64,000 nucleotides of DNA from Aurantimonas coralicida DSM 14790 (GTDB lineage: Bacteria; Pseudomonadota; Alphaproteobacteria; Rhizobiales; Rhizobiaceae). Of the stretch, positions 1 to 14,302 are shown piece after piece. Position 1 is the stretch's first letter. Each line of letters starts with the position of its first letter. The stretch spans positions 186,001-250,000 of the forward strand of contig NZ_ATXK01000003.1 in the NCBI RefSeq assembly GCF_000421645.1, written 5' to 3'. Both the position numbers and the translations under genes were made by a program. Under the pieces are notes generated by a model. The model was not told where the DNA came from. It ran no database searches and worked only from the letters and a program-made list of their open reading frames with translations.

Positions 1-344
1 TTGGGAGGCTGCGGTGCGCGTGCAGCCATCGGCGGCGGCACCGAAGCGGCCTGCGCCGGGCTCGGGGCCGGACGGACCGGACGGGCCGAGGATTTGGTCG
101 CTTCAGCGGTCAGCGCGACGGTTGCCTTCTCGACGCCCGGAACGCCGGACGCGGCCTTCTCGGCGGCGGCGCGCAGCGGCTCCAGCTCTTCCGCGCGGTC
201 GGCCGGAATGGTGAGAGAGAAGAACACCTTGCCGTCGGCGACGAAGATGTCGGAGACCAGCCCGAGATCGACGATGTTGCCGGTGAGATCCGGTCCCTTC
301 ACCCGCTTGAGCTGCTCCAGGATGTCTGCCTTGTCGATTGCCAA
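1..344 (-). CDS. mrp: Mrp/ApbC-family Fe-S cluster carrier, N-terminal part (cut by left edge)
   Basis: Only the first 114 codons are in the window. They encode a MIP18/DUF59-type domain (start MAIDKADILEQL, then a hydrophobic core around LVSDIFV and a segment ending GVEKATVAL), followed by a Pro/Ala-rich linker. This is the usual N-terminus of Mrp/ApbC proteins, whose P-loop ATPase domain binds and delivers iron-sulfur clusters in the cytosol. The ATPase domain would lie left of position 1 and is not visible. I chose a TTG start at 344 because the reading frame opens nowhere else near the domain start and a purine-rich GAGAGA lies just upstream. The neighbouring locus is full of Fe-S proteins, which fits, but mrp is also a common housekeeping gene. 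Confidence 0.8.
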   Translation of the reverse strand, partial: MAIDKADILEQLKRVKGPDLTGNIVDLGLVSDIFVADGKVFFSLTIPADRAEELEPLRAAAEKAASGVPGVEKATVALTAEATKSSARPVRPAPSPAQAASVPPPMAARAPQPP

Positions 345-464
345 AGGGTCTCTCGCTGCTATGAATTGGGTCCCGCGTCTCTTACGGCAAATGCCGCTCC
401 TGGCCAATCGCGATCCCGGGGCGGATCGGCGCGGACCTCACAGCGCGAACGGAGGCCCGAAGAC

Positions 465-755
465 TTGGAATCCCAGGGAAACCGCAAGCAGCGCCGCGCC
501 GCAGGCACGCCGCCGACGCTCGATCCGGACGCCTTCCTGAAGCTGGCGGACCGCTTCATCGACGTGGCCAACCGCGCCAACCAGAAGGTTCTGGCGACTG
601 ACATCCACATGGCGTTTCTCTACGCCGCGGCCCGCTACAACGCCTTTGTCGGCAACAAGGTGCGGGAAGTGGAGGATCACGAGGTCTACATCGAAGAGAT
701 GGCGGCCACCTACAAGGAGATGCTCCGCAACCATCTGGCCGATCCGAACCTCTGA
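465..755 (+). CDS. DUF3144-like small protein
   Basis: A 96-residue soluble protein. Residues from about 25 onward form one helical domain with the features I associate with DUF3144: FLKLADRFIDVAN, an AAARYNAFVG core and a C-terminal tail with YKEMLRNHL. No function is established for the family. The open frame continues upstream to 366, but the TTG at 465 is preferred because a GGAGG lies at 451-455 with nine bases between, and the residues before it look non-coding. It is divergent from mrp and convergent with the DUF3306 gene, whose stop is 13 bases away. No membrane segment or metal motif is visible. Confidence 0.7.
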   Translation: MESQGNRKQRRAAGTPPTLDPDAFLKLADRFIDVANRANQKVLATDIHMAFLYAAARYNAFVGNKVREVEDHEVYIEEMAATYKEMLRNHLADPNL

Positions 756-767
756 TTCGCCGCCGGC

Positions 768-1517
768 CTAACCCTGCAGGCGCTGGCGGATCGACACGCG
801 CCGCGCTTGCGGCTGTGGCTGTGCCCGGCTCTCGATTCGCTCGACCGGTTCGGGCTCCGGCACGGCGGCGATCGACACGCCCGTCTCCTCCGTGATCAGC
901 CGCCCGTCGTTGCCGGCAGCCTGCGGGCCCGCTTCGGCGACGGCGGTCTGCGGCTCGGCCCCCAAGTCTTCGTCGACGGCGGCGTCTACGGGCGCATCTG
1001 CCGCACTGTCTGCGACCGCGTCCGCGTCGCCCTGATCCTCCGCCTCCGCCGCCACGGAATCCGCTTCGGGCTCGGGCCGGGTCAGGCGGCCGGTCGCCTG
1101 TTGGGTGCTCTGCTCCTCGGTGCTCAGGAAGCCGCGTCCGAGCTGCCACAGCGAGGTGTAGCGATTGTGCGCGGGATTGCGGAAATCCTCGTCGTAATCG
1201 TTCAGACCGTCGAGATTGGCGAAGACCGGATTGGAGCGCCACAGCTTGCGCAGCGCCTTGCGGCGCAGGAGCTCCGGAACGCCACGCTTCATGAACAGGC
1301 CGAAATCGTCGCCGGCCTTCATGGAATCGATGTCGACCGCTTCCGCCGCCAGCCGGTTCTGCTCCAGCTCCTCGGCTTCGCGGGCAACGGCCTCGGGATC
1401 GACGACGTCGGGCGTCTGAGCGTCCGCCGCCTCGGCGGCTTCGGCCGCCTCGACCTCGCGCTTGCGGCGCGACCAGCGCGACAGGAAGCTGTCGTTTTCG
1501 CCCGTGCCATCAGCCAT
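768..1517 (-). CDS. DUF3306 protein, formate dehydrogenase accessory
   Basis: A 249-residue protein. An N-terminal segment (FLSRWSRRK) is followed by an Ala/Glu-rich helix. A conserved middle (about 60-125) contains DDFGLFMKRGVPELLRRKAL, a segment with WRSNPVFANLDGLNDYDEDF, and a Tyr/Trp motif. The last 110 residues are low-complexity acidic and Ala-rich. The conserved middle is the DUF3306 signature, a family of unknown biochemical role found almost only beside formate dehydrogenase genes. Its start overlaps the end of the DUF3305 gene by 8 bases, so the two are translationally coupled. The acidic tail overlaps many unrelated open frames on the other strand, which I treat as shadows. Confidence 0.85.
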   Translation of the reverse strand: MADGTGENDSFLSRWSRRKREVEAAEAAEAADAQTPDVVDPEAVAREAEELEQNRLAAEAVDIDSMKAGDDFGLFMKRGVPELLRRKALRKLWRSNPVFANLDGLNDYDEDFRNPAHNRYTSLWQLGRGFLSTEEQSTQQATGRLTRPEPEADSVAAEAEDQGDADAVADSAADAPVDAAVDEDLGAEPQTAVAEAGPQAAGNDGRLITEETGVSIAAVPEPEPVERIESRAQPQPQARRVSIRQRLQG

Positions 1518-2037
1518 CGAGATTGCCTCCGGCCGGCTTCTCGCGCTGCAGGAAGATCGGGTCCTTGCCGAATTTGTGGTCCTCGAGATCCAGCTTGTCG
1601 CGCTGGCGCTTCTTGAACTCCTCTTCCTGGTGATAGCGGTTCACGAAGTCCTTGAGCGTCTCGGTGATGTCCGGCGGCATCGGGACGCGCTCGACGATGT
1701 CCTCGCCGCTGTCGTCGTAATCCTGCGCGAGATAGGGTGAGGCGGTGACGCTGTGGACGAACCACGGCAGCGGGTGGCCATCTTCCGACGGGGAGCGGCG
1801 CAGCACGATGAACAGCGCCGGCACCTGGCTGTTGAAATTGTGCACATACGCCTCGGTATCGGCCGCATGGCAGGTGAGCGCATGCACGCCCATGAAATAG
1901 CGCGTCCGCTCGTCGTCGCTGAGCATCACGTCGCCGGTGGTCAGGCCCCCGGATGCCGGGGCGATTCCCACCGGGATCCAGTACTCCTTCGCCCAGCGCG
2001 AGACGGATCGGCGCCGCTCGGCCAGAACACCCAGCAT
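1510..2037 (-). CDS. DUF3305 protein, formate dehydrogenase accessory
   Basis: A 175-residue protein with the DUF3305 pattern. It starts MLGVLAERRRSVSRWAKE, continues with a WIPVGIAP strand, an acidic GLTTGDVMLSDD segment, and an inner region with FMGVHALTCHAADTEAYVHN. It ends in a charged helix (EEEFKKRQRDK). Known members sit upstream of DUF3306 in formate dehydrogenase loci, and their function is not settled. The frame stays open to 2136, but the ATG at 2037 matches the usual family N-terminus; the ribosome site there is weak, so the start is uncertain. The gene is divergent from the polyferredoxin at 2148, and the roughly 110 bases between would hold both promoters. Confidence 0.85.
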   Translation of the reverse strand: MLGVLAERRRSVSRWAKEYWIPVGIAPASGGLTTGDVMLSDDERTRYFMGVHALTCHAADTEAYVHNFNSQVPALFIVLRRSPSEDGHPLPWFVHSVTASPYLAQDYDDSGEDIVERVPMPPDITETLKDFVNRYHQEEEFKKRQRDKLDLEDHKFGKDPIFLQREKPAGGNLDG

Positions 2038-2147
2038 GATCGTCAGTTCACGGGCCAAATTGGCGCACCTTTCGCAGTCCGCGAGCTCGTTTTTCACCCG
2101 CCATAAACAGCGTAACGTGTTATTCCTCATCGACAAAGGGAGAAGTC

Positions 2148-4190
2148 ATGAGAGCGACGAGCCAACGGATTCTGGTCTGCAACTGCGAGAAGACCATGCA
2201 GGTGGACGGCAGGGCGATCGGCCGTGCCCTCGGTGGCGTGGACCTGCCGGTTCACACGCATCTGTGCCGCAGCCAGATCGGCACCTTCGAGGGCGCCATG
2301 GAGGGCGATGCGCCCGTGGTCGTCGCCTGTACCCAGGAGAGCCCGCTCTTCGCCGAGATCGCCGAGGAGAAGGGGCGCGAGGTTTCCGCCTTCGTCAACA
2401 TTCGCGAAATGGCCGGATGGACCGCCGACAAGGCGTCGATCGCGCCGAAGATGGCGGCGCTGATCGGCGCGGCCTCGCTGCCGGTGGCGCCGGCGCGCCT
2501 GCGGGCCATCGAAAGTGACGGGTTGTGCCTGGTGACCGGCCGGGGGCAGGCGGCCCTGGACGCCGCGACGCTGCTCAACCGCACGCTGTCGGTCACGCTG
2601 CTCTTGACCGATGCCGACGACATCCTGCTGCCCGAAGTGCTCGACTTCCCGGTCTTCCGCGGCCGGGTGGTTTCGGCCACCGGCACGCTCGGCGGTTTCG
2701 ACATCGTCGTCGACGATTACGCCGCCATGCTGCCGTCGTCGCGCGGCGAGCCGCAATTCGCCCTGCCGCGCAACGGCGCCAAATCGTCCTGCAGCGTCCT
2801 CTTCGACATGAGCGGCAACGCGCCGCTCTTTGCCCGCCCGACCGGTCGCGACGGCTATTTCCGCGCCGATCCCGCCGATCCGGCGGCGGTCATGCGGAGC
2901 GTCTTCGACGCCAGCGGCTACGAGGGCGAGTTCGAGAAGCCGATCTATGTCAGCTACGACGCGTCGATCTGCGCCCATGAGCGGTCGAAGAAGACCGGCT
3001 GCACGAAGTGCATCGACAATTGCCCGCCCAGCGCGATCTCGCCCGACGGCGACAACATCCTGATCGACACGGCGATCTGCGGTGGCTGCGGCAATTGCGC
3101 CGCCCATTGCCCGACCGGCGCGGTCTCCTACGACTATCCGGCGCGTGCCCAGTCGATCGAACGGGTGCAGACGCTGGCCCGCACCTATCTGGCCGCCGGC
3201 GGCGAGGCGCCCGTGCTGATGGTGCATGAGCGCGAGCATGGCGCATCGCTGATCAACGCCATGGCGCGTTTCGGTCGCGGCCTGCCGGCCAACGTCATTC
3301 CGCTGGAGATGCATTCGACGACGGCGCTGGGCCACGACCTGATCGTCGCGGCGCTGGCCGCCGGCTTCCGCTCGCTGGCGGTCCTGGTCGATCCGCGCAA
3401 ATCGGGCGAACTGCACGCGCTGCACGAGGAAATCGCGCTGACCGAGGCGCTGCTCGCCGGGCTCGGCCATGCGCCCGACCGGGTGCGGATCGTCGCCGAG
3501 CGCGATCCGGAAATCGTCGAGGCGCTGCTGTATGACCGGCAGGAGGCTGCCGAGATCGCCCGCACGGCGTTCGCGCCGGTCGGCGGCAAGCGCGAGGTGG
3601 CGCGCGCCGGCATCGCGATCGCCGCAGCCGCCGGTTCAGGCCCGGCCGACGATCTGATCCGCCTGCCGTCATCGGCGCCCTACGGCAATATTCTCGTCGA
3701 CAAGGAACGCTGCACGCTCTGCATGGCCTGCGTCTCGGCCTGTCCGGCCGACGCCCTGCGCGACACGCCGGGCAAGCCGGAACTGCGCTTCGTGGAGGCG
3801 GCCTGCGTCCAGTGCGGCATCTGTGCCGCGACCTGTCCGGAAATCGCGATCACGCTCGATCCGCGCTACAATCTGGCGCCGACGGTGATGCAGCCGGTGA
3901 CGCTGAACGAGGACGAACCGGCCGAATGCACCTGTTGCGGCAAGCCCTTCGCCGCGCGCGGCATGCTCGACCGGGTCAGGGAAACGCTCGGCGGCAAGCA
4001 CTGGATGTTCCAGACCGAGGAGCGGGTGGCGCTTCTGAGCATGTGCGAGAGCTGCCGGCTGGAAGCCCTGGCGGCCGACGGCGGCGACCCCTTCGCCATC
4101 GCCCAGCGGCCCAAGGTCCGCACCACCGATGATTATCTGGAAGCCGGCCGACGCGGCCTGACGGTCGACGACTTCCTCACCACCGACTGA
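2148..4190 (+). CDS. Polyferredoxin-like protein of the formate dehydrogenase locus (four [4Fe-4S] motifs)
   Basis: A 680-residue cytosolic Fe-S protein. The N-terminal ~250 residues carry LVCNCEKTM near the start and further isolated Cys residues. Two ferredoxin motifs follow: one starting at Cys275 (ending CTKCIDNCPP) and one at Cys311 (CGGCGNCAAHCP). After a spacer of about 190 residues comes a second pair, at Cys522 (CTLCMACVSACP) and Cys553 (CVQCGICAATCP). The C-terminus has two more Cys pairs (CTCCGKPF and CESC) that could bind zinc or another cluster. GGGAGAAG precedes the ATG. The protein probably passes electrons to or from formate dehydrogenase or takes part in its maturation. This is inferred from motifs and location; a named function is not known to me. 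Confidence 0.85.
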   Translation: MRATSQRILVCNCEKTMQVDGRAIGRALGGVDLPVHTHLCRSQIGTFEGAMEGDAPVVVACTQESPLFAEIAEEKGREVSAFVNIREMAGWTADKASIAPKMAALIGAASLPVAPARLRAIESDGLCLVTGRGQAALDAATLLNRTLSVTLLLTDADDILLPEVLDFPVFRGRVVSATGTLGGFDIVVDDYAAMLPSSRGEPQFALPRNGAKSSCSVLFDMSGNAPLFARPTGRDGYFRADPADPAAVMRSVFDASGYEGEFEKPIYVSYDASICAHERSKKTGCTKCIDNCPPSAISPDGDNILIDTAICGGCGNCAAHCPTGAVSYDYPARAQSIERVQTLARTYLAAGGEAPVLMVHEREHGASLINAMARFGRGLPANVIPLEMHSTTALGHDLIVAALAAGFRSLAVLVDPRKSGELHALHEEIALTEALLAGLGHAPDRVRIVAERDPEIVEALLYDRQEAAEIARTAFAPVGGKREVARAGIAIAAAAGSGPADDLIRLPSSAPYGNILVDKERCTLCMACVSACPADALRDTPGKPELRFVEAACVQCGICAATCPEIAITLDPRYNLAPTVMQPVTLNEDEPAECTCCGKPFAARGMLDRVRETLGGKHWMFQTEERVALLSMCESCRLEALAADGGDPFAIAQRPKVRTTDDYLEAGRRGLTVDDFLTTD

Positions 4191-4193
4191 GGA

Positions 4194-4493
4194 TCAGTTG
4201 CGCTGGTAGCAGAGGGAGCGCGCATCGGCGCGCGACTTCTCGGCGGCTTCGGCGGTGATCAGATCCTGCTGGACCATGACGTCGATGTCGGCGAAGCGCT
4301 TGTCCACGCAGGCCGCGACGTCGGGATCGACCCGCAGCGTGCCGAGCTCCTCGCCCCGCTCCTCGACACCGGCCACCCATTCTTCGGTCTGGATGTAGAC
4401 GAGGAAGGCGAGGGCGGCGAGGGCGATCGCGAAGACCAGCGCCACGAGGCGCATCCAGGGCGAGTTCGCGACGCTGTGTGATGAAGTCGTCAT
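4194..4493 (-). CDS. Small single-span membrane protein
   Basis: A 99-residue protein with one transmembrane helix at about 15-33 (LVALVFAIALAALAFLVYI). A soluble C-terminal part contains two Cys residues (ACVDKRF and SLCYQRN) that could form a disulfide if it faces the periplasm. It ends three bases from the stop of the convergent polyferredoxin gene and starts 13 bases after the DUF6352 stop, so it is probably the last gene of the long minus-strand FDH series. I do not recognise a family. Its conserved placement could be tested by synteny. Confidence 0.6.
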   Translation of the reverse strand: MTTSSHSVANSPWMRLVALVFAIALAALAFLVYIQTEEWVAGVEERGEELGTLRVDPDVAACVDKRFADIDVMVQQDLITAEAAEKSRADARSLCYQRN

Positions 4494-4506
4494 GTCGATT
4501 CCTTGA

Positions 4507-5556
4507 TCATTGGACGCCGGAGGTGAGGGGCAGATTGGTCAGAAGGTTCTGGGGCTTCAGCCGGATGAGACCGGTGGGGTTCACCGCCACGCCGAGATAG
4601 GCCGGCTTGCCCCGCATGGTCGGCAGGATCCGGTCGTCGTCCTTGAATTCCATGCGGAACAGCGCGGCGATCCGGCCGATGCGGTCCTCGTCGACCGTTT
4701 CGCCCTCGTAGAGCCCGTTCAGGGTCTGCGTTGCCTCGGCATCAAGCCCGACATGCCAGGACCAGTGCTGGTCGGTGATCGACTGCATCGCCTGGACCCG
4801 CACCGGCAGGTGCAGGAAATGCGCAACCCAGCGCTCGATCACCCGCGCCAGCGCATCCTGCCCCGGCTGGGTGAAGCGGAAATCGAGGGCGAAATTGAAC
4901 TGGTCGGCCCGGCCCCAATAGGTCTCGCAATTCTCCTCGCTCAGCACGTCGAGCGAGACTTCGCGCATCGGCGTGCCGGCTTCGGCCAGAAGCGAGCCCA
5001 GCCCGCCAAGGCCACCGGATTCGGAATACATCTCGACCACTTCGGCGTCGGCGAGCGTCAGCTGGCCGTCGCCCGTCGTCGCCATCTGGTCGCGGAAGAA
5101 CAGTTCGGCGGCGCGCAGAACGAAGGGGTCGGTTTCCTCGGCCAGAAGCCCGCCGAGGATCAGGTGCACCAGCTGTTCCATGAAGACCGGCGGCACGCGC
5201 GGTGCCTCCGGACGGAACAGGGCGAGATAGCCGGCCTCGATGGAACCGTGCCGCAGGAGATGGTCGCGATAGGCCAGCAGCATGCGGTAATTGTCGGCCG
5301 TGTCGGCATCGGCGAGCGCCGCCAGATCGGCCTCGGTGACCGTCGCGTCGGGCGTCTCCATCAGCCGCTCGAACAGGCGATGCTCGTTGTCGCAGCTTTC
5401 CTCGATCGGGTGGATTTCCGGCCGGGTGTAGTAGGCGCGCAGGAAATCCGGTGTGACCGCGAGCCAGCCATTGTCCAGCTTGTGGGTCAGATGCAGGCCG
5501 GCGGATTTCCAGACGACACGGCCCTGTGGCGCGAGGGGTTTCGCAGGCATCTGCAT
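4507..5556 (-). CDS. DUF6352-like protein of the formate dehydrogenase locus
   Basis: A 349-residue soluble protein without signal peptide or membrane helix. Recognisable segments are WKSAGLHLT, NGWLAVTPDFLRAYYTRPE, PIEESCDNEH, a central helical region and a C-terminal FKDDDRILPTMRGKPAYLGV block. I match it, from memory of gene neighbourhoods, to DUF6352. No catalytic motif is obvious. Its ATG overlaps the stop of the upstream ligase-like gene (TGATG), so the two are translationally coupled. A role in assembling or servicing formate dehydrogenase is inferred only from location. Confidence 0.75.
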   Translation of the reverse strand: MQMPAKPLAPQGRVVWKSAGLHLTHKLDNGWLAVTPDFLRAYYTRPEIHPIEESCDNEHRLFERLMETPDATVTEADLAALADADTADNYRMLLAYRDHLLRHGSIEAGYLALFRPEAPRVPPVFMEQLVHLILGGLLAEETDPFVLRAAELFFRDQMATTGDGQLTLADAEVVEMYSESGGLGGLGSLLAEAGTPMREVSLDVLSEENCETYWGRADQFNFALDFRFTQPGQDALARVIERWVAHFLHLPVRVQAMQSITDQHWSWHVGLDAEATQTLNGLYEGETVDEDRIGRIAALFRMEFKDDDRILPTMRGKPAYLGVAVNPTGLIRLKPQNLLTNLPLTSGVQ

Positions 5557-6323
5557 CAGGAATCGGCTCCGCTTGCGGCATCGGTCAGGGGCAGCAGCAC
5601 CGTGCGCCCATCGGTCTTCAACAGGGCCCCGCCGGCGTCGTCGAGGCCGATCATGGTGCCGGAATGCCGGACGCCGCCGAGGACGATGTCCACGGTCTCG
5701 CCCATCGCATCGGCGCGGGACGTCCAGCTCTGATGCGCGGCACGGAACCCGTCATGGGTCCATCCGTCGATCCACGACAGGAAATGCCGCGCCACCGCCT
5801 CGACGATGAGGGTGCGGTCGAGTTCGCCGCAGCCTTCTTCCATCAGGGCGGTCGCGGCCAGATCGTGGCCCGGCTCGGCAGGGCCGTTCCGCGACGCCTC
5901 GATGGTCAGCGCGTAGCCGACGACCATGTGGTCGGGGATCCCGTCTGGATCGCGCGGTTCTGGAACATGCAGGCGCGCGGCGCCGACGGTCGCGCCATTG
6001 GCCAGGATCGTGCCGGGCCAGCGGAAGGTCAGCGCCAGATTCGGCGGTCCGATGCCGCCCAGCGCGTCGCCGATCGCCACCATCAGGAGCGGCAGCATCT
6101 GCGCGGCCTTGGCGAGCGCGACGTCCGGCTCCAGGATCAGCGCGGCCGCCGCACAGTCCGTGTCGCGGCTCCAGAACAGATCGCCCGCGCCATGGGATTG
6201 CGCGCGCGCGGCATCGATCGCCGCCGCGAAGGGGTCGACGCCCGCAGCCACCGGGTGGCCGGTGAAGGCGGGGGGGAATTCAGGGTCCGCCAGGGGCGCG
6301 ATGTCGATCTGGCTGAGCGTCAC
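5556..6323 (-). CDS. Biotin/lipoate ligase-like protein with DUF4444-type C-terminus
   Basis: A 255-residue protein. Residues about 1-185 resemble the biotin/lipoate protein ligase fold and the last 60 resemble DUF4444 (VDIVLGGVRHSGTMIGLDD). The segment aligning with the BirA KWPND loop reads RWPGTILANGATVG. The lysine is Arg, and the second lysine (RKLAGIL in BirA) is also missing. The GRGRRGR-type nucleotide loop is not seen; SRDTDCAAAALI stands near its place. Ligase activity is therefore doubtful, and it may bind a cofactor or a partner instead. It overlaps the DUF6494 gene by 4 bases upstream and the DUF6352 gene by 1 base downstream, inside the FDH series. Confidence 0.75.
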   Translation of the reverse strand: MTLSQIDIAPLADPEFPPAFTGHPVAAGVDPFAAAIDAARAQSHGAGDLFWSRDTDCAAAALILEPDVALAKAAQMLPLLMVAIGDALGGIGPPNLALTFRWPGTILANGATVGAARLHVPEPRDPDGIPDHMVVGYALTIEASRNGPAEPGHDLAATALMEEGCGELDRTLIVEAVARHFLSWIDGWTHDGFRAAHQSWTSRADAMGETVDIVLGGVRHSGTMIGLDDAGGALLKTDGRTVLLPLTDAASGADS

Positions 6324-6511
6324 GGCAGCTGGATTTCACCCTCGACGACATGGTCCAACGGCTCACCCTCGGCGGTCAGATGCATGCGCACCTTCAAGGG
6401 GCCCGAGCCGGCCTTGCCGGAGCGCACCAGTTCCTCGATCTCGCGCTGCGAGGTCACGCCGACCTGCTTGAGAAACTTGCGCAGTGACATGTTGAAGGCT
6501 TCTTCGCTCAT
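6320..6511 (-). CDS. DUF6494-like small protein
   Basis: A 63-residue protein starting MSEEAFNMSLRKFLKQVG. It has a short helical N-terminal half (TSQREIEELVR) and a strand-rich C-terminal half (KVRMHLTAEG, then LDHVVEGEIQLP). This pattern is what I know as DUF6494, a family with no assigned function next to FDH genes. The ATG at 6511 has AGGA upstream and is preferred over a longer frame reaching 6574. The stop overlaps the next gene by 4 bases (ATGA), indicating translational coupling to the ligase-like protein. The fold could be a small carrier or adaptor domain, but that is speculation. Confidence 0.75.
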   Translation of the reverse strand: MSEEAFNMSLRKFLKQVGVTSQREIEELVRSGKAGSGPLKVRMHLTAEGEPLDHVVEGEIQLP

Positions 6512-6636
6512 CGGTCCTGTTCCTTGCTGTCGCGGTGCCGCCGGCGGCGCTCCGCGTGATGATCGGTCTCTCACCGGGCGTGTGAAGGCACCGTGCCGCC
6601 GCGTCCCGCGACGCGTGCGTGCGCGGTCGATCGGGC

Positions 6637-6765
6637 CTATTGCAGCCGGACGTTCTCGGTCGAATAGGCTTCGCTGGCCGATTGTTCCAGCTCGGTGTTG
6701 AGCAGGAGGCCGACGCCCAGCCCGATGAGCAGCACGATGGCCACGCTTAGCAGGAATGCCTTCAT
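6637..6765 (-). CDS. 42-residue membrane peptide
   Basis: A short frame starting MKAFLLSVAIVLLIGLGVG and ending ENVRLQ, followed by TAG. The first 22 residues form one hydrophobic helix with a single positive charge in front. About 20 polar residues follow (LNTELEQSASEAYSTE). The ATG overlaps the stop of the WD40-cytochrome c gene by four bases (ATGA), typical of real coupled genes. It lies between two genes of the FDH series. Small single-helix subunits are common in respiratory complexes, so a role as an extra membrane subunit is plausible but unproven. Confidence 0.65.
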   Translation of the reverse strand: MKAFLLSVAIVLLIGLGVGLLLNTELEQSASEAYSTENVRLQ

Positions 6766-8165
6766 TGTGGTGTGGTCTCCCCCGGTTCTGGTGCCGGTCG
6801 CCCGCTCGGCGGCGGCGTTTCGGCGTCGGTTGCGGTCGCCCGCTTCAGATAGGCGATCAGCGCATCGCGCCGTTCGACGCTCTTCAGGCGCTGCACCGGC
6901 ATCTTGGTGCCCGGCGTGACGACGTCGGGTCCATGGTCGAACAGCTGTGATACCGTGTCCTCGGTCCAGACGATATCCGATTCCGTCAACGCCTCCGAAT
7001 AGGCATAGCCTTCGACGGTGCCGGCCTTGCGTCCGAACAGGCCGAACAGCGTCGGCCCGGCGCGGTTGCCGTCATCCGGCGTCAGCGTATGGCAGACCGA
7101 GCATTTGCGCAGGAACTCGCTTTCGCCGGGATCGTCCGTGCCATGCGCCTGGAACCGCCGCGGATAGACCGACTGGATCGCCTCCATGCGCTGGCGCGGC
7201 GAGACCTGCCAGCGGATGGCGAAATCGTCGAGCCCGACCCGGTAGAGCTCCTTGCCGTCCGGCGTGAAGGACAGGCCCCAGACCGGGCCGTAGACGTCGC
7301 CATATTCCTCGACCAGCGTGCCGGTGTCGATGTCGAAGACCCGGATGCGCCCGTCGGCGCTGCCGGTGGCGAACCATCCGGCCCGTGGTGACGCGGCGAT
7401 CGACAGCACCGGATTCTCTTTCGCGGCGAGTTCCACGGTTTCCAGCGTCGGCAGGTCGACGAGACCGGTCACACCGTTCTGGCTGCCGAAGGCGAGCAGG
7501 GTGCCGCCGGGCAGGGGGGTGATGACGTTGACGCCCCAGCCATGGGTGTAGAGCACACGCGACGAACCGGCGATGCGGCCGTCGTCGAGCGGCCACGCAC
7601 GGATCGCGCCGTCATAGCCGGCGGTGAACAATTGCCGTCCGTCCAGCGCGAAGGTGACCGCGTTGACATTGCCCTGATGGCCCTCGGCGCGCGCGATCTC
7701 GCGACCCTCCGCAATGTCAAATATCCGCGCCGTTCCGTCCCAGCGCGCGGCGGCGGCAAAGCGGCCGTCCGGGCTGACGGCGACGTCGAGCACCTTGACC
7801 GGCGTATCGGTGATCCGCTGTTCGAGCTCGCCGGTCGCAAGATCCCAGATGGCGAAGGAGCCGTCGTCGGAGACCGAGACGGCCTTGTCCGTGCCGGGGA
7901 CGAAGGCGACGTCGTTGACCGCCGCGTCGTGGCCGGCGAGCCGGGCGGCGACGGTGCCGTCCGGGCCGGTCATGTCCCAGAGGATGATCGAATAATCGAA
8001 GGAGGCGGTCAGCGCGCGCGTGCCGTCGTCGGACAGCGCGACCGCCTTCACCGGTCCGCCGTGGCCGACCAGCCGCTCCGGCAGCGCCTCTGCGCCGGCC
8101 GGGTTCGACAGCATCGCGAGGATGGCGGCGGCGGCGAGCGCCGCCAGTCTCAAAGCGGGGCGCAT
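6762..8165 (-). CDS. WD40 repeat - cytochrome c fusion protein
   Basis: A 467-residue exported protein. Residues 1-25 form a signal peptide ending PAGAEA. Residues about 30-330 contain about seven WD40-type repeats (recurring D-G-T/R-A and W-D pairs, such as IILWDM, FAIWDL and IRAWPL), giving a beta propeller. A class I cytochrome c domain follows, with the heme motif CSVCH at 355-359 and a distal Met probably in GTKMPVQRL. The tail is Pro-rich. Its stop overlaps the 42-aa peptide, and it begins 19 bases after the FDH gamma stop. It is probably a periplasmic electron acceptor or docking partner of the FDH complex; this is inferred from position and domains. Confidence 0.85.
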   Translation of the reverse strand: MRPALRLAALAAAAILAMLSNPAGAEALPERLVGHGGPVKAVALSDDGTRALTASFDYSIILWDMTGPDGTVAARLAGHDAAVNDVAFVPGTDKAVSVSDDGSFAIWDLATGELEQRITDTPVKVLDVAVSPDGRFAAAARWDGTARIFDIAEGREIARAEGHQGNVNAVTFALDGRQLFTAGYDGAIRAWPLDDGRIAGSSRVLYTHGWGVNVITPLPGGTLLAFGSQNGVTGLVDLPTLETVELAAKENPVLSIAASPRAGWFATGSADGRIRVFDIDTGTLVEEYGDVYGPVWGLSFTPDGKELYRVGLDDFAIRWQVSPRQRMEAIQSVYPRRFQAHGTDDPGESEFLRKCSVCHTLTPDDGNRAGPTLFGLFGRKAGTVEGYAYSEALTESDIVWTEDTVSQLFDHGPDVVTPGTKMPVQRLKSVERRDALIAYLKRATATDAETPPPSGRPAPEPGETTPQ

Positions 8166-8184
8166 GGTCGCGTCACGCCGGCCG

Positions 8185-9360
8185 CTATTCCGCAGGTGCG
8201 GGATGCGCCCCGGCCTCGGGGCGGCCGTCCTTCTTCAGGACCTCATCCACCCAGAGCGCATGATGCTCGCGCGCCCAGTTCAGGTCGACGTCGCCGCTGC
8301 CCATCGCATCGAAGGCGCCTTCCATGCCGATCGTGCCGATATAGATGTGGCCGAAGATCACGCAGACCATGAACACCGCCATGACGGCGTGCCAGATGGT
8401 GTTGAACTGCTGCTCCTGGATCACCGAATAGGGCGGCTGCGGCAGGCCGAGCCAGGCCGGCACGTCGAGGCCGATGCCGGCAAGGGCGGTAAAGGTGTCG
8501 CCGAAGAAGCCGTGCTCGAACGGGAACAGCAGGGCCCAGCCCGAAACGCTGAGCGACAGGCCGCCGATCATCACCAGCCAGAAGATGACCTTCTGTCCGG
8601 CGTTGAACTTCCAGGCCGGCGGATGCGCGCCCTTGGAAAAGAAGCCGCCGCCCTTCATCAGCCAGACGAAGTCGGCGCGCGAGGGGAGGTTGTGGACGAT
8701 CCAGAGGACAAAGGCGACCACCAGCCCGGCCATGAAGGCGAAGGCCACGTAGTTGTGCGACATCTTCAGGAAGCCGGACATCGGGCCGAAGAGCTCCTTG
8801 CCGATCAGCGGCATGATCAGCTCGCGGCCATAGGAGATGTTCAGCCCGCTGATGGCGAGGATGATGAAGGACAGCGCCATCACCCAATGGGCGGTGCGCT
8901 CGACCAGGCCGAAGCGCTTGATGGTCACGCCGGCAAGACCGTGCTGGACGCGGATGCGGCCGCGAACGGCGAAGAAGACGGCGAGCAGGACCAGCATGCC
9001 GATCATCGCCAGTCCGAGATAGTCGAACATCGGACCGTTGCGCAGCAGGCGCCAGGACTCGCCCTCGGACTGCACCAGCACCGAGGCCTTCTTGTCGGGG
9101 ATCGAGACGCCGCCGGAAATGCCCTGGCGCACCGACCGCCAGATTTCGGCGTCAGAGGTGGTGCCGAGCGCGTCGCCGGGGACGGCGCCGCCGGTCGGCG
9201 AGGCGTTGTCCGGCGGCCGGACCGAGCTCTGGGCCTGGCCGGTGCCGGCTGCGGCGAACAGCATCAAGACGGCGATGGCGAGGACCGGCACGAGAGCTGC
9301 AAGACGCCGTAGCGGGGCGGAGCGTGACAAGACAGCGAGAGACGCTCTGAGGCTAGGCAT
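8185..9360 (-). CDS. fdoI: Formate dehydrogenase gamma subunit (membrane cytochrome b)
   Basis: A 391-residue membrane protein. A signal-like N-terminal helix is followed by a periplasmic stretch of about 70 residues, then five hydrophobic segments. Family features include the ERTAHW motif before the first core helix, HNYVAFAF in a later helix, and HAVMAVFMVCVIFGHIYIGT near the C-terminus. These His residues are the usual heme b ligands. The protein passes electrons from the beta subunit to the quinone pool or to the cytochrome c next door. The frame stays open upstream to 9951, but the ATG at 9360 gives the expected export signal and leaves the beta gene intact. It differs from E. coli FdoI in its N-terminal extension. 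Confidence 0.92.
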   Translation of the reverse strand: MPSLRASLAVLSRSAPLRRLAALVPVLAIAVLMLFAAAGTGQAQSSVRPPDNASPTGGAVPGDALGTTSDAEIWRSVRQGISGGVSIPDKKASVLVQSEGESWRLLRNGPMFDYLGLAMIGMLVLLAVFFAVRGRIRVQHGLAGVTIKRFGLVERTAHWVMALSFIILAISGLNISYGRELIMPLIGKELFGPMSGFLKMSHNYVAFAFMAGLVVAFVLWIVHNLPSRADFVWLMKGGGFFSKGAHPPAWKFNAGQKVIFWLVMIGGLSLSVSGWALLFPFEHGFFGDTFTALAGIGLDVPAWLGLPQPPYSVIQEQQFNTIWHAVMAVFMVCVIFGHIYIGTIGMEGAFDAMGSGDVDLNWAREHHALWVDEVLKKDGRPEAGAHPAPAE

Positions 9361-9432
9361 GTCCTCTATCCCCGTTCGGGTGAAAGATGCGGCGGGAATG
9401 GGCAACGCGGTGCGCCACCGGTCATGGTCGGG

Positions 9433-9458
9433 CGGCGGACGGCCGGAGCCGTCCGCCG
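9433..9458 (-). other. Perfect hairpin between FDH beta and gamma genes
   Basis: Ten-base arms CGGCGGACGG and CCGTCCGCCG enclose a six-base loop, in the 118-base gap between the beta stop and the gamma start. No T-run follows on the minus strand, so it is more likely an mRNA processing or stability element than a terminator. Apart from this the gap shows nothing. Confidence 0.5.
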
Positions 9459-9478
9459 GAAGTGCATGCGCGGCTGTA

Positions 9479-10075
9479 TCAGCCGCCCAGCTTCTGGTCG
9501 TAGGCGGTGCCCCAGCCCCAGGCGCCGGCGCCGAAGCCGCGGGCCACGACACGCTCGCGGTAGATCGACGACACCGTGTCGCCGTCGCCGGCGAGAAGCG
9601 CCTTGGTCGAGCACATCTCGGCGCACAGCGGCAGCTTGCCCTCGGCCAGACGGTTGCGACCGTATTTCTGGAACTCCACCGCCGAATTGTCCTCTTCCGG
9701 ACCGCCGGCGCAGAAGGTGCACTTGTCCATCTTGCCGCGCGAACCGAAATTCGAGGCCTGCGGATATTGCGGTGCGCCGAAGGGGCAGGCGTAGAAGCAA
9801 TAGCCGCAGCCGATGCACAGGTCCTTGGAGTGGAGAACCACGCCGTCGGAGGTCTGGTAGAAGCAGTCCACCGGGCAGACCGCCATGCAGGGTGCGTCGG
9901 AGCAGTGCATGCAGGCGACCGAGATCGACCGCTCGCCTGGCTTGCCGTCATTGATGGTGACGACGCGCCGGCGGTTCACGCCCCACGGAACCTCGTGCTC
10001 GTTCTTGCAGGCGGTCACGCAGGCGTTGCATTCGATGCAGCGCTCGGCGTCGCAGAGGAACTTCATTCGTGCCAT
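9479..10075 (-). CDS. fdh3B: Formate dehydrogenase beta subunit (FDH3-type four-cluster ferredoxin)
   Basis: A 198-residue electron-transfer subunit. Four [4Fe-4S] sites are visible: [12 protein letters not shown] near residue 13, [14 protein letters not shown] near 55, [12 protein letters not shown] near 87, and a fourth formed by CTFC and CAEMC further on. This is the standard arrangement of the beta subunit of respiratory formate dehydrogenases (DmsB/NrfC-type), carrying electrons from the molybdopterin subunit to the membrane cytochrome. It has no membrane anchor, unlike E. coli FdoH, which fits the shorter FDH3 type. It starts 15 bases after the alpha subunit stop. Confidence 0.93.
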
Positions 10076-10090
10076 TGGTCTGATCCTCCC

Positions 10091-13081
10091 TTACGCCCGT
10101 TCGATCCGGCAGAGCGTGGTCTTGGTTTCCTGCATCTGCGTCACCGAATCGTAGCCGTATGTCTGTGCCGTGTTGCAGGCTTCGCCGAGCACGTAAGGGT
10201 CGGCGCCATCGGGATATTTCCCGCGCAGGTCGTTGCCCTGGAAGTAGCCGCCGAAGTGGAAGGGCGTGAACACCACGCCGCGACCGACGCGTTCGGTGAC
10301 CATCGCCATGATGCGGATCTTGCCGCCTTCCGGGCTGTGCAGCCACACCGTGTCGCGGTCGCGAAGACCGAGATCGTTGGCGTCCGACGGGTTGATCTCG
10401 ACGAACATGTCCTGCTGCAGCTCGGCGAGCCACGGATTGGAGCGGGTCTCGTCGCCGCCGCCCTCGTATTCCACCAGACGCCCGGACGTCATGATCATCG
10501 GGAAGTCCTTGGAATAGTCGTTCTTCTGGATCGAGGCGTAGGCCGTCGGCACGCGCCAGAAGGTCTTGTCCTCATAGGTCGGATAATCCGTCACCAGATC
10601 GCGGCGCGGCGTGTAGAGCGGCTCGCGATGGATCGGCACCGGATCGGGGAAGGTCCAGACCACGGCGCGGGCCTTGGCGTTGCCGTAGGGGGCGCAGCCA
10701 TGGGCGATCGCCACGCGCTGGATGCCGCCCGACAGGTCGGTCTTCCAGTTCACGCCGCCGACCTTCTCGTCGTAGTCGGAATCGATCTCGCCGGTCTGCG
10801 ACTGCTCGCCGACATCGTCGCCCTGGCTCGGACGCTGGTCGGCGAAGCCGGCCACATAATCGATGTAGCGACGCTCGTAGGGCGTCAGGTCCTTGTCCCA
10901 GCCGAGCTCCTTGAGCATGGCGAAGGTGAACTCGGGATAGCCGTCCTCGATCTCCGAGCCGACCGGCCAGGAGCCCTCGGCGAGAAGGTTGTCGCCGTCA
11001 CGCTCGACGCCGAAGCGGGCGCGGAAGCCCATGCCGCCCTGCGCCACCGGGATCGAGGTGTCGTAGAGATTGGCCGAGCCGCTGTGCTTCATCTCGGCGG
11101 TGCCCCAGCACGGCCAGGGCATGCCGTAGAACTCGCCGTCATGCGCGCCGCCGACGCCGCGAAGCGTGGTGCGGTCGAAGGTGTGCTGGTTCTGCATGTG
11201 CGACTTGAGGCGCTCCGGCGACTGGCCGGTATAGCCGATGGTCCACATGCCGCGGTTGAACTCGCGGGTGATGTCCTCGACGACCGGCTCGCCGTCCTTG
11301 ACCTCGATGTTGCGGAACATGCGGTCCGCGAAGCCGAACTTCTCGGCGAATTTGTGCATGATCGTGTGGTCGGGCAGGGATTCGAACAGCGGCTCGACCA
11401 CCTTCTCGCGCCACTGCAGCGACCGGTTTGACGCGGTCACCGAGCCGGAGGTCTCGAACTGCGTGGAGGCCGGCAGCAGATAGACCCCGTCGGTGCGGTC
11501 CTGCAGGACGGCGGTCATGGTCGGATACGGGTCGATGACGACCAGCATCTCCAGCATGCCCATCGCCTTCTGCATTTCCGGCAGGCGGGTCTGCGAGTTC
11601 GGCGCATGGCCCCAGAACACCATGACCTTGGTGTTGTCGGGCTGCTCCAGGTTTTCCCTGGCCTCGAGAACGCCGTCGATCCAGCGCGAGACCGGGATGC
11701 CGGTCTCGTTCATCATCAGGCGGTCCTTGCCCTCGTCGCCGGCGCCCGGCATCACGGCAAAGCGGCCCTTGAGCCAGTCGAGTTCCTCTTCCCAGACCCG
11801 GGCCCAGTGCGCCCAGGAGCCGGCGGTCAGGCCGTAATAGCCCGGCAGCGTGTCGGCGAGGACGCCCAGATCGGTCGCGCCCTGCACATTGTCATGGCCG
11901 CGGAAGATGTTGGTGCCGCCGCCGGCTTTGCCCATGTTGCCGAGGGCGAGCTGCAGGATGCAGTAGGCGCGGGTGTTGTTGTTGCCGTTGGTGTGCTGGG
12001 TGCCGCCCATGCACCAGATCAGCGTCGCCGGACGGCTCTCGGCCATGGTCCGCGCGACGCGCTGGAGCTGCGAGCCCGGAACGCCCGTGACCCGCTCGAC
12101 CTCCTCGGGCGTCCAGCGGGCGACCTCGGTGCGGATCTGGTCCATGCCCCAGACGCGGCTGTTGATGAATTCCTTGTCTTCCCAGCCATTCTCGAAGATG
12201 TGGTAGAGAATGCCCCAGATCAGCGCGACGTCGGTGCCCGGCCGGAACCGCACATACTCGTCGGCATGGGCCGCGGTGCGCGTGAAGCGCGGGTCGCAGA
12301 CGATCAGCGGGGCGTTGTTCTCTTCCTTGGCCTTCAACAGATGCAGCAGCGAGACCGGATGCGCCTCGGCCGGGTTGCCGCCGATCAGGAAGATCGCCCG
12401 GGAATTGTGGATGTCGTTGTAGGAATTGGTCATCGCGCCGTAGCCCCAGGTGTTGGCAACACCTGCGACCGTGGTGGAGTGACAGATCCGGGCCTGATGG
12501 TCGATGTTGTTCGTGCCCCAATAGGCGGCGAACTTGCGGATCAGGTAGGACTGTTCGTTGGAATGCTTGGCCGAGCCGAGCCAGTAGACGGAATCGGGGC
12601 CGGCGGCCTCGCGGACCTCCAGCATCTTGTCGCCGATCTCGTTGATCGCCTCGTCCCAGCTGATGCGCTGCCATTTTCCGCCGACGAGCTTCATCGGGTA
12701 TTTCAGGCGGCGTTCGCCATGGGCGTGCTCGCGCACCGAGGCGCCCTTGGCGCAGTGGGCACCGAGATTGAACGGGGAATCGAAGCCCGGCTCCTGGCCG
12801 ACCCAGACGCCGTTCGACACTTCCGCCAGCACCGTGCAGCCGACCGAGCAATGAGTGCAGACCGACTTGCGGATCTCCATCTCGCCGGTCGCGGTCTCGC
12901 CCGCGGCCTCGGCGCGGCGCACCATGCCGCCGGACAGCGTCGCCACGGCGGCGGCGCCACCGATGGTCAGGCCCGAGCGCTTCAGGAAGGTCCGGCGATC
13001 AACCGCGGCCGTCCCCAGCTCCGACAGCGCCGACGCCATTCGGTTGCTCCGCGCCGCGCCGTTTGCCTTTTTCCTGAGCAT
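10091..13081 (-). CDS. fdhA: Formate dehydrogenase alpha subunit, Cys-type, Tat-exported
   Basis: A 996-residue bis-molybdopterin enzyme that oxidises formate to CO2 (or the reverse). Features in order: Tat signal RRTFLKRSG at about 29-37 with a hydrophobic h-region; a [4Fe-4S] site beginning CTHCSVGC at about 76 and completed by CAKGA; then the active-site segment ARICHS, where Cys200 occupies the place of selenocysteine in E. coli FdoG. The neighbouring His is kept. Later segments (GNPAEAHP, GGTQHTNG, GGTNIFRGHDN) are typical cofactor-binding loops. GGAGG precedes the ATG. The metal may be Mo or W; tupBCA next door favours W, but sequence alone does not decide. No UGA codon or SECIS element is needed. 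Confidence 0.95.
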   Translation of the reverse strand: MLRKKANGAARSNRMASALSELGTAAVDRRTFLKRSGLTIGGAAAVATLSGGMVRRAEAAGETATGEMEIRKSVCTHCSVGCTVLAEVSNGVWVGQEPGFDSPFNLGAHCAKGASVREHAHGERRLKYPMKLVGGKWQRISWDEAINEIGDKMLEVREAAGPDSVYWLGSAKHSNEQSYLIRKFAAYWGTNNIDHQARICHSTTVAGVANTWGYGAMTNSYNDIHNSRAIFLIGGNPAEAHPVSLLHLLKAKEENNAPLIVCDPRFTRTAAHADEYVRFRPGTDVALIWGILYHIFENGWEDKEFINSRVWGMDQIRTEVARWTPEEVERVTGVPGSQLQRVARTMAESRPATLIWCMGGTQHTNGNNNTRAYCILQLALGNMGKAGGGTNIFRGHDNVQGATDLGVLADTLPGYYGLTAGSWAHWARVWEEELDWLKGRFAVMPGAGDEGKDRLMMNETGIPVSRWIDGVLEARENLEQPDNTKVMVFWGHAPNSQTRLPEMQKAMGMLEMLVVIDPYPTMTAVLQDRTDGVYLLPASTQFETSGSVTASNRSLQWREKVVEPLFESLPDHTIMHKFAEKFGFADRMFRNIEVKDGEPVVEDITREFNRGMWTIGYTGQSPERLKSHMQNQHTFDRTTLRGVGGAHDGEFYGMPWPCWGTAEMKHSGSANLYDTSIPVAQGGMGFRARFGVERDGDNLLAEGSWPVGSEIEDGYPEFTFAMLKELGWDKDLTPYERRYIDYVAGFADQRPSQGDDVGEQSQTGEIDSDYDEKVGGVNWKTDLSGGIQRVAIAHGCAPYGNAKARAVVWTFPDPVPIHREPLYTPRRDLVTDYPTYEDKTFWRVPTAYASIQKNDYSKDFPMIMTSGRLVEYEGGGDETRSNPWLAELQQDMFVEINPSDANDLGLRDRDTVWLHSPEGGKIRIMAMVTERVGRGVVFTPFHFGGYFQGNDLRGKYPDGADPYVLGEACNTAQTYGYDSVTQMQETKTTLCRIERA

Positions 13082-13138
13082 ATCTGCCTCCGATCCTTGA
13101 TGTGCGGCCGCCCGCGATCCGTTTGACTGGCGGGTGGG

Positions 13139-13348
13139 TTAGAACCGTGCCGACTTGTAGAATGTCCTGACATGATCGGTTTCGCGGTAGCCCGCGCCCG
13201 TCGTGTCGTCCTCGGTGATCGCCGCTTCGGCGGGCGCGCCGGTGACCAGCGCGGCGCCGCCGGCCACGCCGCCCAGCCCTGCGAACTTCAGGAAAGCCCG
13301 GCGATCGGCCTGGGTGCCGCCCTTCGTTCCCGTGCTCTTGTCGCTCAT
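13139..13348 (-). CDS. 69-residue Tat-signal protein of the formate dehydrogenase operon
   Basis: A small protein made mostly of a twin-arginine signal: hydrophilic N-region, DRRAFLKFAG at about 15-24, and a hydrophobic stretch ending APAEA. Only about 25 residues remain after predicted cleavage (ITEDDTTGAGY, then HVRTFYKSARF). The ATG at 13348 has GGAGAAACG upstream; longer upstream frames have no support. Similar short Tat proteins sit just before FDH alpha genes in other proteobacteria. It may act as a co-exported or accessory peptide for the alpha subunit, but no activity is known to me. It lies 57 bases upstream of fdhA. Confidence 0.8.
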   Translation of the reverse strand: MSDKSTGTKGGTQADRRAFLKFAGLGGVAGGAALVTGAPAEAAITEDDTTGAGYRETDHVRTFYKSARF

Positions 13349-13427
13349 CTCGTTTCTCCGTGGTCGAAGGGCCGTGCCCTGGTCTCGTTCCTTTTGCGGG
13401 GTGCCGCCGTCCCCGCGGGTTGGGCGG

Positions 13428-14033
13428 CTACATGTCGAAGCCCGATTCCTCGATGGCCATGAACTGCCGGCCGATCGTGCCGACCGGGCGGTAGAGCCGC
13501 GCCGTGCGGTTGGTCTCCAGATCCGCAAAGAAATGCCCGGCCCAGGAGCCGACATGCTTGCGGAAGAAATCCTTCTGGACGGCAAGCGGCTGGATCTGCC
13601 CGAAGCTGCCCTCGATCAGCCCGGCCATCATCTCCATCAGAGCGCCGGCGTGATCCTCGGGATCGCGGCTGTCCTCGGAGCGGGCGATGCCCAGCGGCAC
13701 CATGTCGGAGCGCAGCCGCGCCAGCGGCTTTTCGTTGAGAAATCCGGTCAGGTAGTAGGAGCCGTAGGGCACGAGCTCGCCGCGCCCGACACCGATGAAC
13801 AGCTCCTGATATTCCTCGCGGGCTGCGGCGAGCGAAATCGCGCGCGCCTCGCCGGCGAGATCGCCGATGCCCCGGCCGAGCGGGCTGTCATCGCCGGACA
13901 GGCCCTGCAGCATCGCCAGCAACGCCTCGTCGGCCGGACGCGCCAGAAGGCGCGCAAGCAACCTGTAGAGGTTGGCGCGCAAGGCCTCGGCCTCGGCCGG
14001 TTCCGTCGTTACAGCGAGATTGTGGTTCTGCAA
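13428..14033 (-). CDS. TorD/DmsD-family maturation chaperone
   Basis: A 201-residue, all-helical cytosolic protein. It fits the TorD family by length and by features such as LRANLYRLLARLLARPADE near the N-terminus, EYQELFIGVGRGELVPYGSYYL in pieces around the middle, and a DHAGALMEMMAGLI helix. These chaperones bind the Tat signal of molybdoenzymes and hold export until the cofactor is inserted. Here the client is most likely the FDH alpha subunit. I chose TTG at 14033 because GGGAG lies seven bases upstream; the frame is open to 14138, but the extra residues do not resemble the family. It is the first gene of the FDH operon. Confidence 0.85.
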   Translation of the reverse strand: MQNHNLAVTTEPAEAEALRANLYRLLARLLARPADEALLAMLQGLSGDDSPLGRGIGDLAGEARAISLAAAREEYQELFIGVGRGELVPYGSYYLTGFLNEKPLARLRSDMVPLGIARSEDSRDPEDHAGALMEMMAGLIEGSFGQIQPLAVQKDFFRKHVGSWAGHFFADLETNRTARLYRPVGTIGRQFMAIEESGFDM

Positions 14034-14302
14034 GGCTGTTCTCCCACTCCAGTAGAGCAACAAATCGTCCGATTCACAACGGTTTTCTGGCCCTGCGGCA
14101 ATGTCGCCGAGCGGCTTGCTTAAACATGACTGTTTCACTCATATTTATATACTCTGCGTTGCGTACGACTTCCCGGGGCACGTCTCGCAACTGCGTTCGA
14201 ATACAACGCAGATGCGGTAACGATTGCTTAAGCTGGACGAAAAGGGCGTTCCCGGGCATAATCTCCCACGACGACGCAAGCAGGCGGACGAAACAGGAGA
14301 AA
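14034..14302. promoter_or_regulatory. Divergent control region between the FDH operon and tupBCA, with a spaced inverted repeat
   Basis: This 269-base gap must hold promoters for both the chaperone-fdh operon and tupBCA. It has an AT-rich patch (ATATTTATATA, about 14140-14150) in an otherwise GC-rich region. Next to it is an exact nine-base inverted repeat, TCTGCGTTG at 14153-14161 and CAACGCAGA at 14204-14212, about five helical turns apart centre to centre. A smaller pair, GTTGCG at 14158-14163 and CGCAAC at 14186-14191, lies inside. The nearby HTH/PBP regulator is a candidate binder. I find no clear E. coli ModE-type site. Confidence 0.45.

Follow-up and report, generated by a model that had tools for sequence, protein, structure and literature searches.

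Accessory genes of formate dehydrogenases (FDHs) and related enzymes have been described from several directions. Bay et al. (2015) reported DUF3305, DUF3306, fer4 and small twin-arginine translocation (Tat) proteins with torD/dmsD-fdhGHI operons; for one operon type they gave the frequency of DUF3305/DUF3306 as 60%, and they suggested co-regulation (PMC4464133). FdhD/FdhE and Campylobacter FdhM, a TorD homologue, act in FDH maturation, and the cytosolic NapF, which has four [4Fe-4S] motifs, is reported to be required for the NapA cluster in R. sphaeroides, while E. coli and Wolinella are only marginally affected by its loss (PMC10609526). For the S. oneidensis enzyme SoFdhAB (PDB 9VAP), a Cys ligand and tungsten (W) are reported, with one [4Fe-4S] cluster in FdhA and four in FdhB (PMC13397495). 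In C. necator, knocking out membrane-bound FDH made no significant difference to fitness (PMC11540253).

Here, we analyze the genes around an FDH of Aurantimonas coralicida DSM 14790, within a stretch of 64,000 nucleotides (the window; contig NZ_ATXK01000003.1, positions 186,001 to 250,000) for which an initial annotation had proposed an undescribed assembly or electron-transfer apparatus. We show by linkage and by presence and absence that this gene set is tied to one clade of the catalytic subunit FdhA, and a joint FDH-specific role of its families is well supported. Eight genes are a near-constant core and the remainder is an extension present in part of the clusters, while the WD40-cytochrome c and the 42-amino-acid (aa) peptide are a separable add-on to the FDH set.

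Gene set and co-occurrence with the enzyme

All genes named by the initial annotation were located, with family matches save for the 99-aa protein and the 42-aa peptide, neither of which has a Pfam or NCBIfam match above cut-off. The module reads as follows.

768–1517, minus strand: DUF3306 protein, core accessory, 249 aa (PF11748, 84.4 bits, cut-off 25)
1510–2136, minus strand: DUF3305 protein, core accessory (PF11749, 117.2 bits); the ATG at 2037 is the likely true start
2148–4190, plus strand: polyferredoxin, 680 aa (Fer4 families)
4194–4493, minus strand: 99-aa protein with one membrane helix (residues 11–37, by hydropathy)
4507–5556, minus strand: DUF6352 protein, extension gene, 349 aa (PF19879, 253.7 bits)
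5556–6323, minus strand: BPL_LplA_LipB_2 protein, biotin/lipoate-ligase-like, hereafter pseudo-ligase (PF16917, 227.6 bits, cut-off 27)
6320–6511, minus strand: DUF6494 small protein (PF20104, 95.1 bits)
6637–6765, minus strand: 42-aa membrane peptide with one helix (by hydropathy)
6762–8165, minus strand: WD40-cytochrome c (WD40 families; one CxxCH, residue 355)
8185–9360, minus strand: FdhC cytochrome b subunit (TIGR01583, 130.7 bits, cut-off 115.85; transmembrane-like segments)
9479–10075, minus strand: FdhB iron-sulfur subunit, FDH3 type (NF038355, 347.7 bits, cut-off 240)
10091–13081, minus strand: FdhA catalytic subunit (molybdopterin Pfam domains; 1399.8 bits against 9vap_A)
13139–13348, minus strand: small Tat-signal protein of FDH regions, 69 aa (TIGR02811, 54.4 bits, cut-off 48.45)
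13428–14033, minus strand, possible upstream start at 14138: TorD-family chaperone (PF02613, 93.8 bits, cut-off 22.2)

In a sample of 180 genomes of the phylum, with the FdhA threshold (E ≤ 1e-150) fixed before other results, the FdhA clade was found in 21 genomes and DUF3305 in 21, and these were the same genomes. DUF6352 occurred in 9, DUF6505 in 15 and DUF6494 in 8, and 9/9, 15/15 and 7/8 of these, respectively, were among the 21 FDH genomes. The family PF16917 is broad (111/180 genomes), and its strong matches (E < 1e-45, a limit chosen after inspecting the list, with the next match, in G016, at 4.7e-27) fall in 14 genomes, all within the 21. We read the 22 FDH clusters of this sample in stretches of 19–30 kb. 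TorD, FdhA, FdhB, FdhC, DUF3305 and DUF3306 were each present in 22/22 clusters and the polyferredoxin and small Tat protein each in 21/22, followed by the pseudo-ligase and DUF6505 (14 each), the 42-aa peptide (13), the WD40-cytochrome c (11), DUF6352 and the Fe-S carrier Mrp (8 each), DUF6494 (5), and the 99-aa protein and DUF3144 (2 each).

We also surveyed a class sample of 279 Alphaproteobacteria genomes, drawn of 290 requested. Two FdhA candidates were scored per genome; full hits reached at least 862 bits and other proteins at most 240, not counting C-terminal fragments of the full-hit genes. The FdhA clade was present in 37/279 genomes and DUF3305 in 38/279, 37 of the 38 together with FDH. 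The sole DUF3305 genome without a detected FDH3-type FdhA (G317, C3:109094-109516) had 2 of 11 FdhA candidates scored, and the exception could be a missed FdhA. Within 20 kb, 35/39 DUF3305 copies were near FdhA and 35/40 FdhA copies near DUF3305. DUF6352 was found in 31/279 genomes, 30 of them with FDH; the exception, G210, is in 810 contigs. The association holds at a distance: where DUF6352 was unlinked only (on another contig or more than 20 kb away), FDH was present in 13/14 genomes, as against 7/248 genomes without DUF6352, and since some genomes in this group are drafts a few may truly be linked. DUF6352 and FDH lie far apart on one contig in G016 and G420, and in G016 DUF6352, DUF6505 and DUF6494 are all present and all distant from FdhA on one contig. 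These three families thus track FDH too, with one exception each for DUF6494 and DUF6352. The synteny survey that the initial annotation had proposed placed the core genes in 21–22 of 22 clusters, and the families did not occur mostly apart from FDH, the outcome which that annotation had held would speak against it. By these counts the grouping exceeds what chance would give.

We further scanned named genomes with the DUF6352 profile and read the best 80 of 549 relatives. Among these 80, 44 had FDH or DUF3305 in the stretch (some ending at contig ends), and 17 had neither despite more than 7 kb on each side. The stretches of the remaining 19 were too short to be counted either way, including that of L052, which has FdhB and FdhC. 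The 44 linked loci contained the pseudo-ligase in 42, DUF3305 and DUF3306 in 41 each, FdhA and the Tat protein in 40 each, the polyferredoxin and TorD in 38 each, DUF6494 in 34, the WD40-cytochrome c in 30, the 99-aa protein and 42-aa peptide in 27 each, DUF6505 in 26 and DUF3144 in 18. A whole-genome search for DUF3305 in 24 of the 36 non-linked named genomes (17 lone, 7 short) was positive in 21/24 and did not find it in G193, G200 and G203. Lone DUF6352 loci (L059, L065, L066 and others) lie near MlaD, DUF2155, a class II ribonucleotide reductase and an ABC transporter; as a functional clue, these neighbors gave no lead.

The enzyme, its accessory proteins and their neighbors

Profile matches place the enzyme among the FDH3-type formate dehydrogenases, as a relative of the tungsten-Cys enzyme of S. 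oneidensis. FdhB passes the FDH3 beta model and can be aligned to 9vap_B over residues 1–189, and FdhA, which scores highly against 9vap_A, is under the cut-offs of other FDH alpha branches (TIGR01591, 482.1 vs 666.25; TIGR01553, 339.5 vs 814.2). FdhA has a Tat motif, DRRTFLK, at residue 28 (a pattern match only) and, judged by eye, a Cys at the position of selenocysteine (Sec) in Sec enzymes. TupBCA-like transporter genes adjoin the FDH genes, and because TupA is under its curated cut-off (NF041772, 213.5 vs 400) we consider tungsten dependence likely and no firmer than that. The same genome holds a second, diverged FDH cluster (C3:38001-58000, L013) whose FdhA is 59% identical; distributed over both strands, it comprises the core genes with DUF6352 and DUF6505, and nothing in it matched the pseudo-ligase, the WD40-cytochrome c or DUF6494.

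DUF3305 matches positions 221–372 of NF011058 (MobA, DUF3305 domain-containing) and the MobA encoded nearby matches positions 8–198, both below the whole-model cut-off; matching two halves of one NCBIfam model suggests that the two proteins act together. The AlphaFold model of DUF3305 is confident (predicted local distance difference test, pLDDT, 87.6), as is that of DUF6352 (pLDDT 93.6, predicted template modeling score 0.90). Foldseek searches of the PDB with either model returned no fold match at E ≤ 0.001, and no function can therefore be assigned to them by fold. The polyferredoxin carries four [4Fe-4S]-type Cys motifs and a CxxC...CxxC near the C terminus, with the Cys conserved across 64 sequences; it is without a Tat motif and has a single borderline hydrophobic stretch (398–416). 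A Pfam search with its N-terminal 233 residues gave nothing at E ≤ 1; by eye, this region may resemble HdrA N-termini. The TorD candidate passes the TorD/NarJ family and is under the TorD equivalog NF003442 (50.9 vs 132). The WD40 protein combines a beta-propeller with a c-type cytochrome region and scores 62.7 bits against NF043008, below the cut-off of 240. We looked for hidden homology among the module proteins by all-against-all profile comparison of 12 families, leaving out the polyferredoxin and WD40 protein, and rejected it: a single weak pair, formed by DUF6494 and the small Tat protein (30%), rose above a probability of 15%.

Biotin/lipoate ligases carry a GRGRxx loop and catalytic lysine motifs. 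Although the pseudo-ligase passes its family profile well, a GRGR-like or catalytic-lysine-like pattern occurs in 0/64 sequences, and we rejected an active ligase. A solved protein titled biotin protein ligase-like, of unknown function, is a relative of the window pseudo-ligase (PDB 3bfm, chain A, 124.4 bits) and is closer to the pseudo-ligase of a Sagittula FDH cluster (293.2 bits). In the Ruegeria TM1040 megaplasmid, examined as its possible source, we saw no FDH subunit in either of two stretches. DUF6494 has a near-invariant FNMSxRKFLKxVGVTSQ (47 sequences).

The initial annotation had stated that many of the genes overlap by 1–8 bases and are therefore made together. The sizes are right and "many" is generous, as just four pairs overlap: DUF3305/DUF3306 (8 bp), DUF6352/pseudo-ligase (1 bp), pseudo-ligase/DUF6494 (4 bp) and peptide/WD40 (4 bp). 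The opposite-strand polyferredoxin lies between two minus-strand groups, which indicates at least three transcription units and leaves co-expression of the whole set unsupported. The ATG at 2037 sits just ahead of the DUF3305 Pfam domain, and translation more likely begins there, which would leave about 110 bp between the two divergent genes. That annotation had also overlooked the 69-aa Tat-signal protein, DUF3144 and the genes that span the window start and continue past it. The features flanking the module are these.

1–407, minus strand: FDH-linked Mrp/ApbC, 5' end of the reading frame (remainder outside the window, L166:7184-8407)
366–755, plus strand: DUF3144 protein, recurrent neighbor in close relatives (PF11342, 51.6 bits)
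14126–15010, plus strand: TupB-like ABC permease, true start probably further in (PF00528, 33.9 bits; gene order with TupC and TupA)
15003–15800, plus strand: TupC-like ABC ATPase (PF00005)
15830–16671, plus strand: TupA-like tungstate-binding protein (NF041772, below cut-off as above)
16698–17666, minus strand: helix-turn-helix (HTH) and periplasmic-binding-like (PBP) regulator (PF12727, PF12728)

DUF3144, on the opposite strand between DUF3306 and Mrp, adjoins the module in close relatives. Across the window start and upstream on the same contig lie genes for Mrp/ApbC, MoeA, FdhD, MobA, a MoeA-PBP fusion and a further MoeA-like gene. Annotated plasmids carry the same gene sets, in Sinorhizobium with mobA and fdhD adjoining and in Sagittula with Mrp inside. 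The window-adjacent Mrp passes PF10609 (NUBPL-type NTPase, 347.5 bits) and PF01883 (FeS_assembly_P, 49.3 bits) and is just under the ApbC equivalog NF008669 (346.3 vs 348). In Mrp/ApbC Fe-S carriers, CxxC is the cluster-binding motif. This genome has two Mrp copies: the FDH-linked one has the motif (CPDC), and the other (G000:C3:333814-334581; L167:7974-9647) is without it, as in the family-mate G051. All 16 distinct FDH-linked copies read have CxxC. The motif survey as a whole leaves out G067 and L036, and in G008, G019 and G066 the motif was not readable.

In a tree of 30 Mrp sequences, which leaves out G066 (long branch), the L036 fragment and the G067 and G174 copies linked to FDH, the FDH-linked copies fall into two parts. 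The window-adjacent Mrp clusters with eight FDH-linked copies, seven from Hyphomicrobiales (one of the eight being a near-identical A. manganoxydans copy) and one from Paracoccaceae, at moderate support (87/85). Those of Rhodobacterales and two f38 genomes sit with ordinary Rhodobacterales copies (clade 100/99) and are unresolved as one group; an earlier tree that joined them at 92/90 used single-domain pieces in some rows and is superseded.

A probable maturation line and rival explanations

On balance, the cytoplasmic members are probably a line dedicated to the maturation of a single FDH3-type enzyme, which is exported by Tat and probably depends on tungsten. Several observations favor this reading. 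The strictest partners are predicted to be cytoplasmic while FdhA appears exported. DUF3305, DUF3306, DUF6352, DUF6494, the pseudo-ligase and Mrp are all without a membrane helix or Tat motif by pattern and hydropathy. Cofactor genes adjoin the module here, an Fe-S carrier occurs in the islands of lineages with different Mrp types, and NapF offers a precedent (PMC10609526). Of the two roles in the initial proposal, assembly or electron transfer, assembly is thus favored for the cytoplasmic proteins. The genes do not make up a single block.

In outline, TupABC would import tungstate, and MoeA, MobA and FdhD would make and sulfurate the bis-molybdopterin guanine dinucleotide (bis-MGD) cofactor. 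DUF3305, together with DUF3306, would help pass bis-MGD to apo-FdhA bound by TorD, and the polyferredoxin would serve to load or check the FdhA/FdhB [4Fe-4S] clusters in the manner of NapF. Some of the gene clusters would add, for the same task, a dedicated Mrp/ApbC carrier that works with DUF6494, DUF6505, DUF6352 and the pseudo-ligase. TorD and the small Tat protein would control export, and FdhC, the WD40-cytochrome c and the 42-aa peptide, in or outside the membrane and outside maturation, would carry electrons away. We infer the assignment of DUF3305/DUF3306 to cofactor hand-over and of the extension to Fe-S loading.

Several results weigh against a dedicated maturation line. The whole extension (DUF6352, DUF6505, DUF6494, pseudo-ligase, Mrp) is missing from 7/22 clusters (G016, G019, G050, G066, G086, G098, G111), and the genomes G050, G066, G098 and G111 have no DUF6352, DUF6494, DUF6505 or strong pseudo-ligase anywhere, so that the extension is dispensable in some genomes. 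DUF6494 occurs without this FDH in one of the 180 genomes (G107, C8:291659-291844), and within 20 kb 5/40 FdhA copies were without DUF3305 and 4/39 DUF3305 copies without FdhA. The Fisher p-values for the class sample (2e-45, 2e-32 and 3e-16) ignore shared descent and are to be read as large effects rather than as exact probabilities. The cofactor and Fe-S carrier genes are near a minority of the linked named loci: Mrp 10/42, FdhD 9/42, MobA 8/42 and MoeA 6/42 (the 44 loci less 2 too short, with at most 10 kb per side and some shorter). No MobA-DUF3305 fusion was found as a single frame among the loci examined, and the polyferredoxin does not pass the NapF model TIGR00402 (42.3 bits, cut-off 102.2). 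CxxC is also present in 11/16 Mrp copies without FDH linkage (2 without, 3 unread) and is therefore not a mark of the FDH-linked copies. The localizations are predictions from Tat pattern and hydropathy.

A more specific form of the maturation reading is possible and clearly more tentative: an enzyme-dedicated Fe-S delivery complex that loads FdhA/FdhB, in which Mrp/ApbC, recruited more than once as Rhodobacterales-type and Hyphomicrobiales-type copies, works with DUF6494, a biotin ligase turned adaptor, DUF6505 and DUF6352. In this view DUF3305/DUF3306 would take the cofactor that MobA makes to FdhA. The idea is weakened by the spread of CxxC beyond FDH-linked Mrps and by the lack of a resolved single clade for the Rhodobacterales copies. 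If true, DUF3305 and DUF6352 would be new both in fold and in the part they play in assembling metalloenzymes.

The main rival, which we consider unlikely, is that the accessory proteins form an electron-transfer apparatus, with the polyferredoxin and partners linking FDH to a cytoplasmic partner and the WD40-cytochrome c feeding periplasmic acceptors. This explanation draws on the resemblance of the polyferredoxin to HdrA/MvhB-type ferredoxin regions, on a sub-threshold FlpD-like stretch in it (E 0.016, 15.7 vs 22.3 bits), and on the haem-motif WD40 gene, which comes next after FdhC in the window and occurs in 11/22 clusters and 30/44 linked named loci. However, the Tat motif of FdhA and the absence of that motif or any clear signal from the polyferredoxin would place the two on opposite sides of the membrane, FdhC, judged from its family, already gives a quinone route, and family matches connect neither the pseudo-ligase nor DUF3305, DUF3306, DUF6352 or DUF6494 with redox proteins. 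Less probable still is a sensing or regulatory role, in which some extension proteins read, for example, metal or formate status and the pseudo-ligase is a ligand-binding adaptor with DUF6352 as its partner. Some biotin ligases are ligand-dependent regulators, and the pseudo-ligase retains the family profile without the ligase motif, but no DNA-binding domain was matched in it or in DUF6352, and the island already has an HTH-PBP regulator. An old neighborhood co-inherited without joint function is very improbable: gene order is well conserved in relatives, so that co-inheritance alone would yield linkage, but unlinked DUF6352 tracks FDH and G016 keeps DUF6352, DUF6505 and DUF6494 far from FdhA.

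Should the cytoplasmic members act as a maturation line, the island would be of practical interest. Tungsten and molybdenum formate dehydrogenases are sought as catalysts that reduce CO2. For another W-dependent FDH, a study published in 2026 names catalytic-subunit maturation as the bottleneck in E. coli and proposes co-expression of native maturation factors (PMC13396061). The island is a short list of candidate maturation factors for the FDH branch that includes the O2-tolerant SoFdhAB (PMC13397495). It also gives a likely context for five families of unknown function, DUF3305, DUF3306, DUF6352, DUF6494 and DUF6505, and a functional prediction for 3bfm, a solved structure of unknown function.

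Comparison with described systems

The apparatus had been called undescribed, which is accurate in part. The core link was in print in 2015: the torD/dmsD-fdhGHI operons carry the same core genes beside FDH as here, and the available part of that account names no DUF6352, DUF6494, DUF6505, pseudo-ligase or Mrp, all of which are present here (PMC4464133). The open-licence PMC literature yielded no paper on DUF6352, DUF6494 or DUF6505 by name, and none linking FDH with Mrp/ApbC, TorD and DUF terms together. What appears to be new is the extension to the accessory set of a molybdo/tungstoenzyme, the core association being already published.

SoFdhAB supplies relatives of both FdhA and FdhB; it was expressed as a dimer, and its account, in the part available, is silent on accessory genes (PMC13397495). 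As in FDH maturation by FdhD/FdhE and FdhM, the island has FdhD and the cluster TorD; unlike the set here, the available part of that account names no DUF proteins (PMC10609526). NapF resembles the polyferredoxin in that both have four [4Fe-4S] motifs and a Tat-exported molybdoenzyme as client, predicted in the present case (PMC10609526). The polyferredoxin differs in being far larger, at 680 aa against a NapF model of 149 positions, and in its extra N-terminal, middle and CxxC regions.

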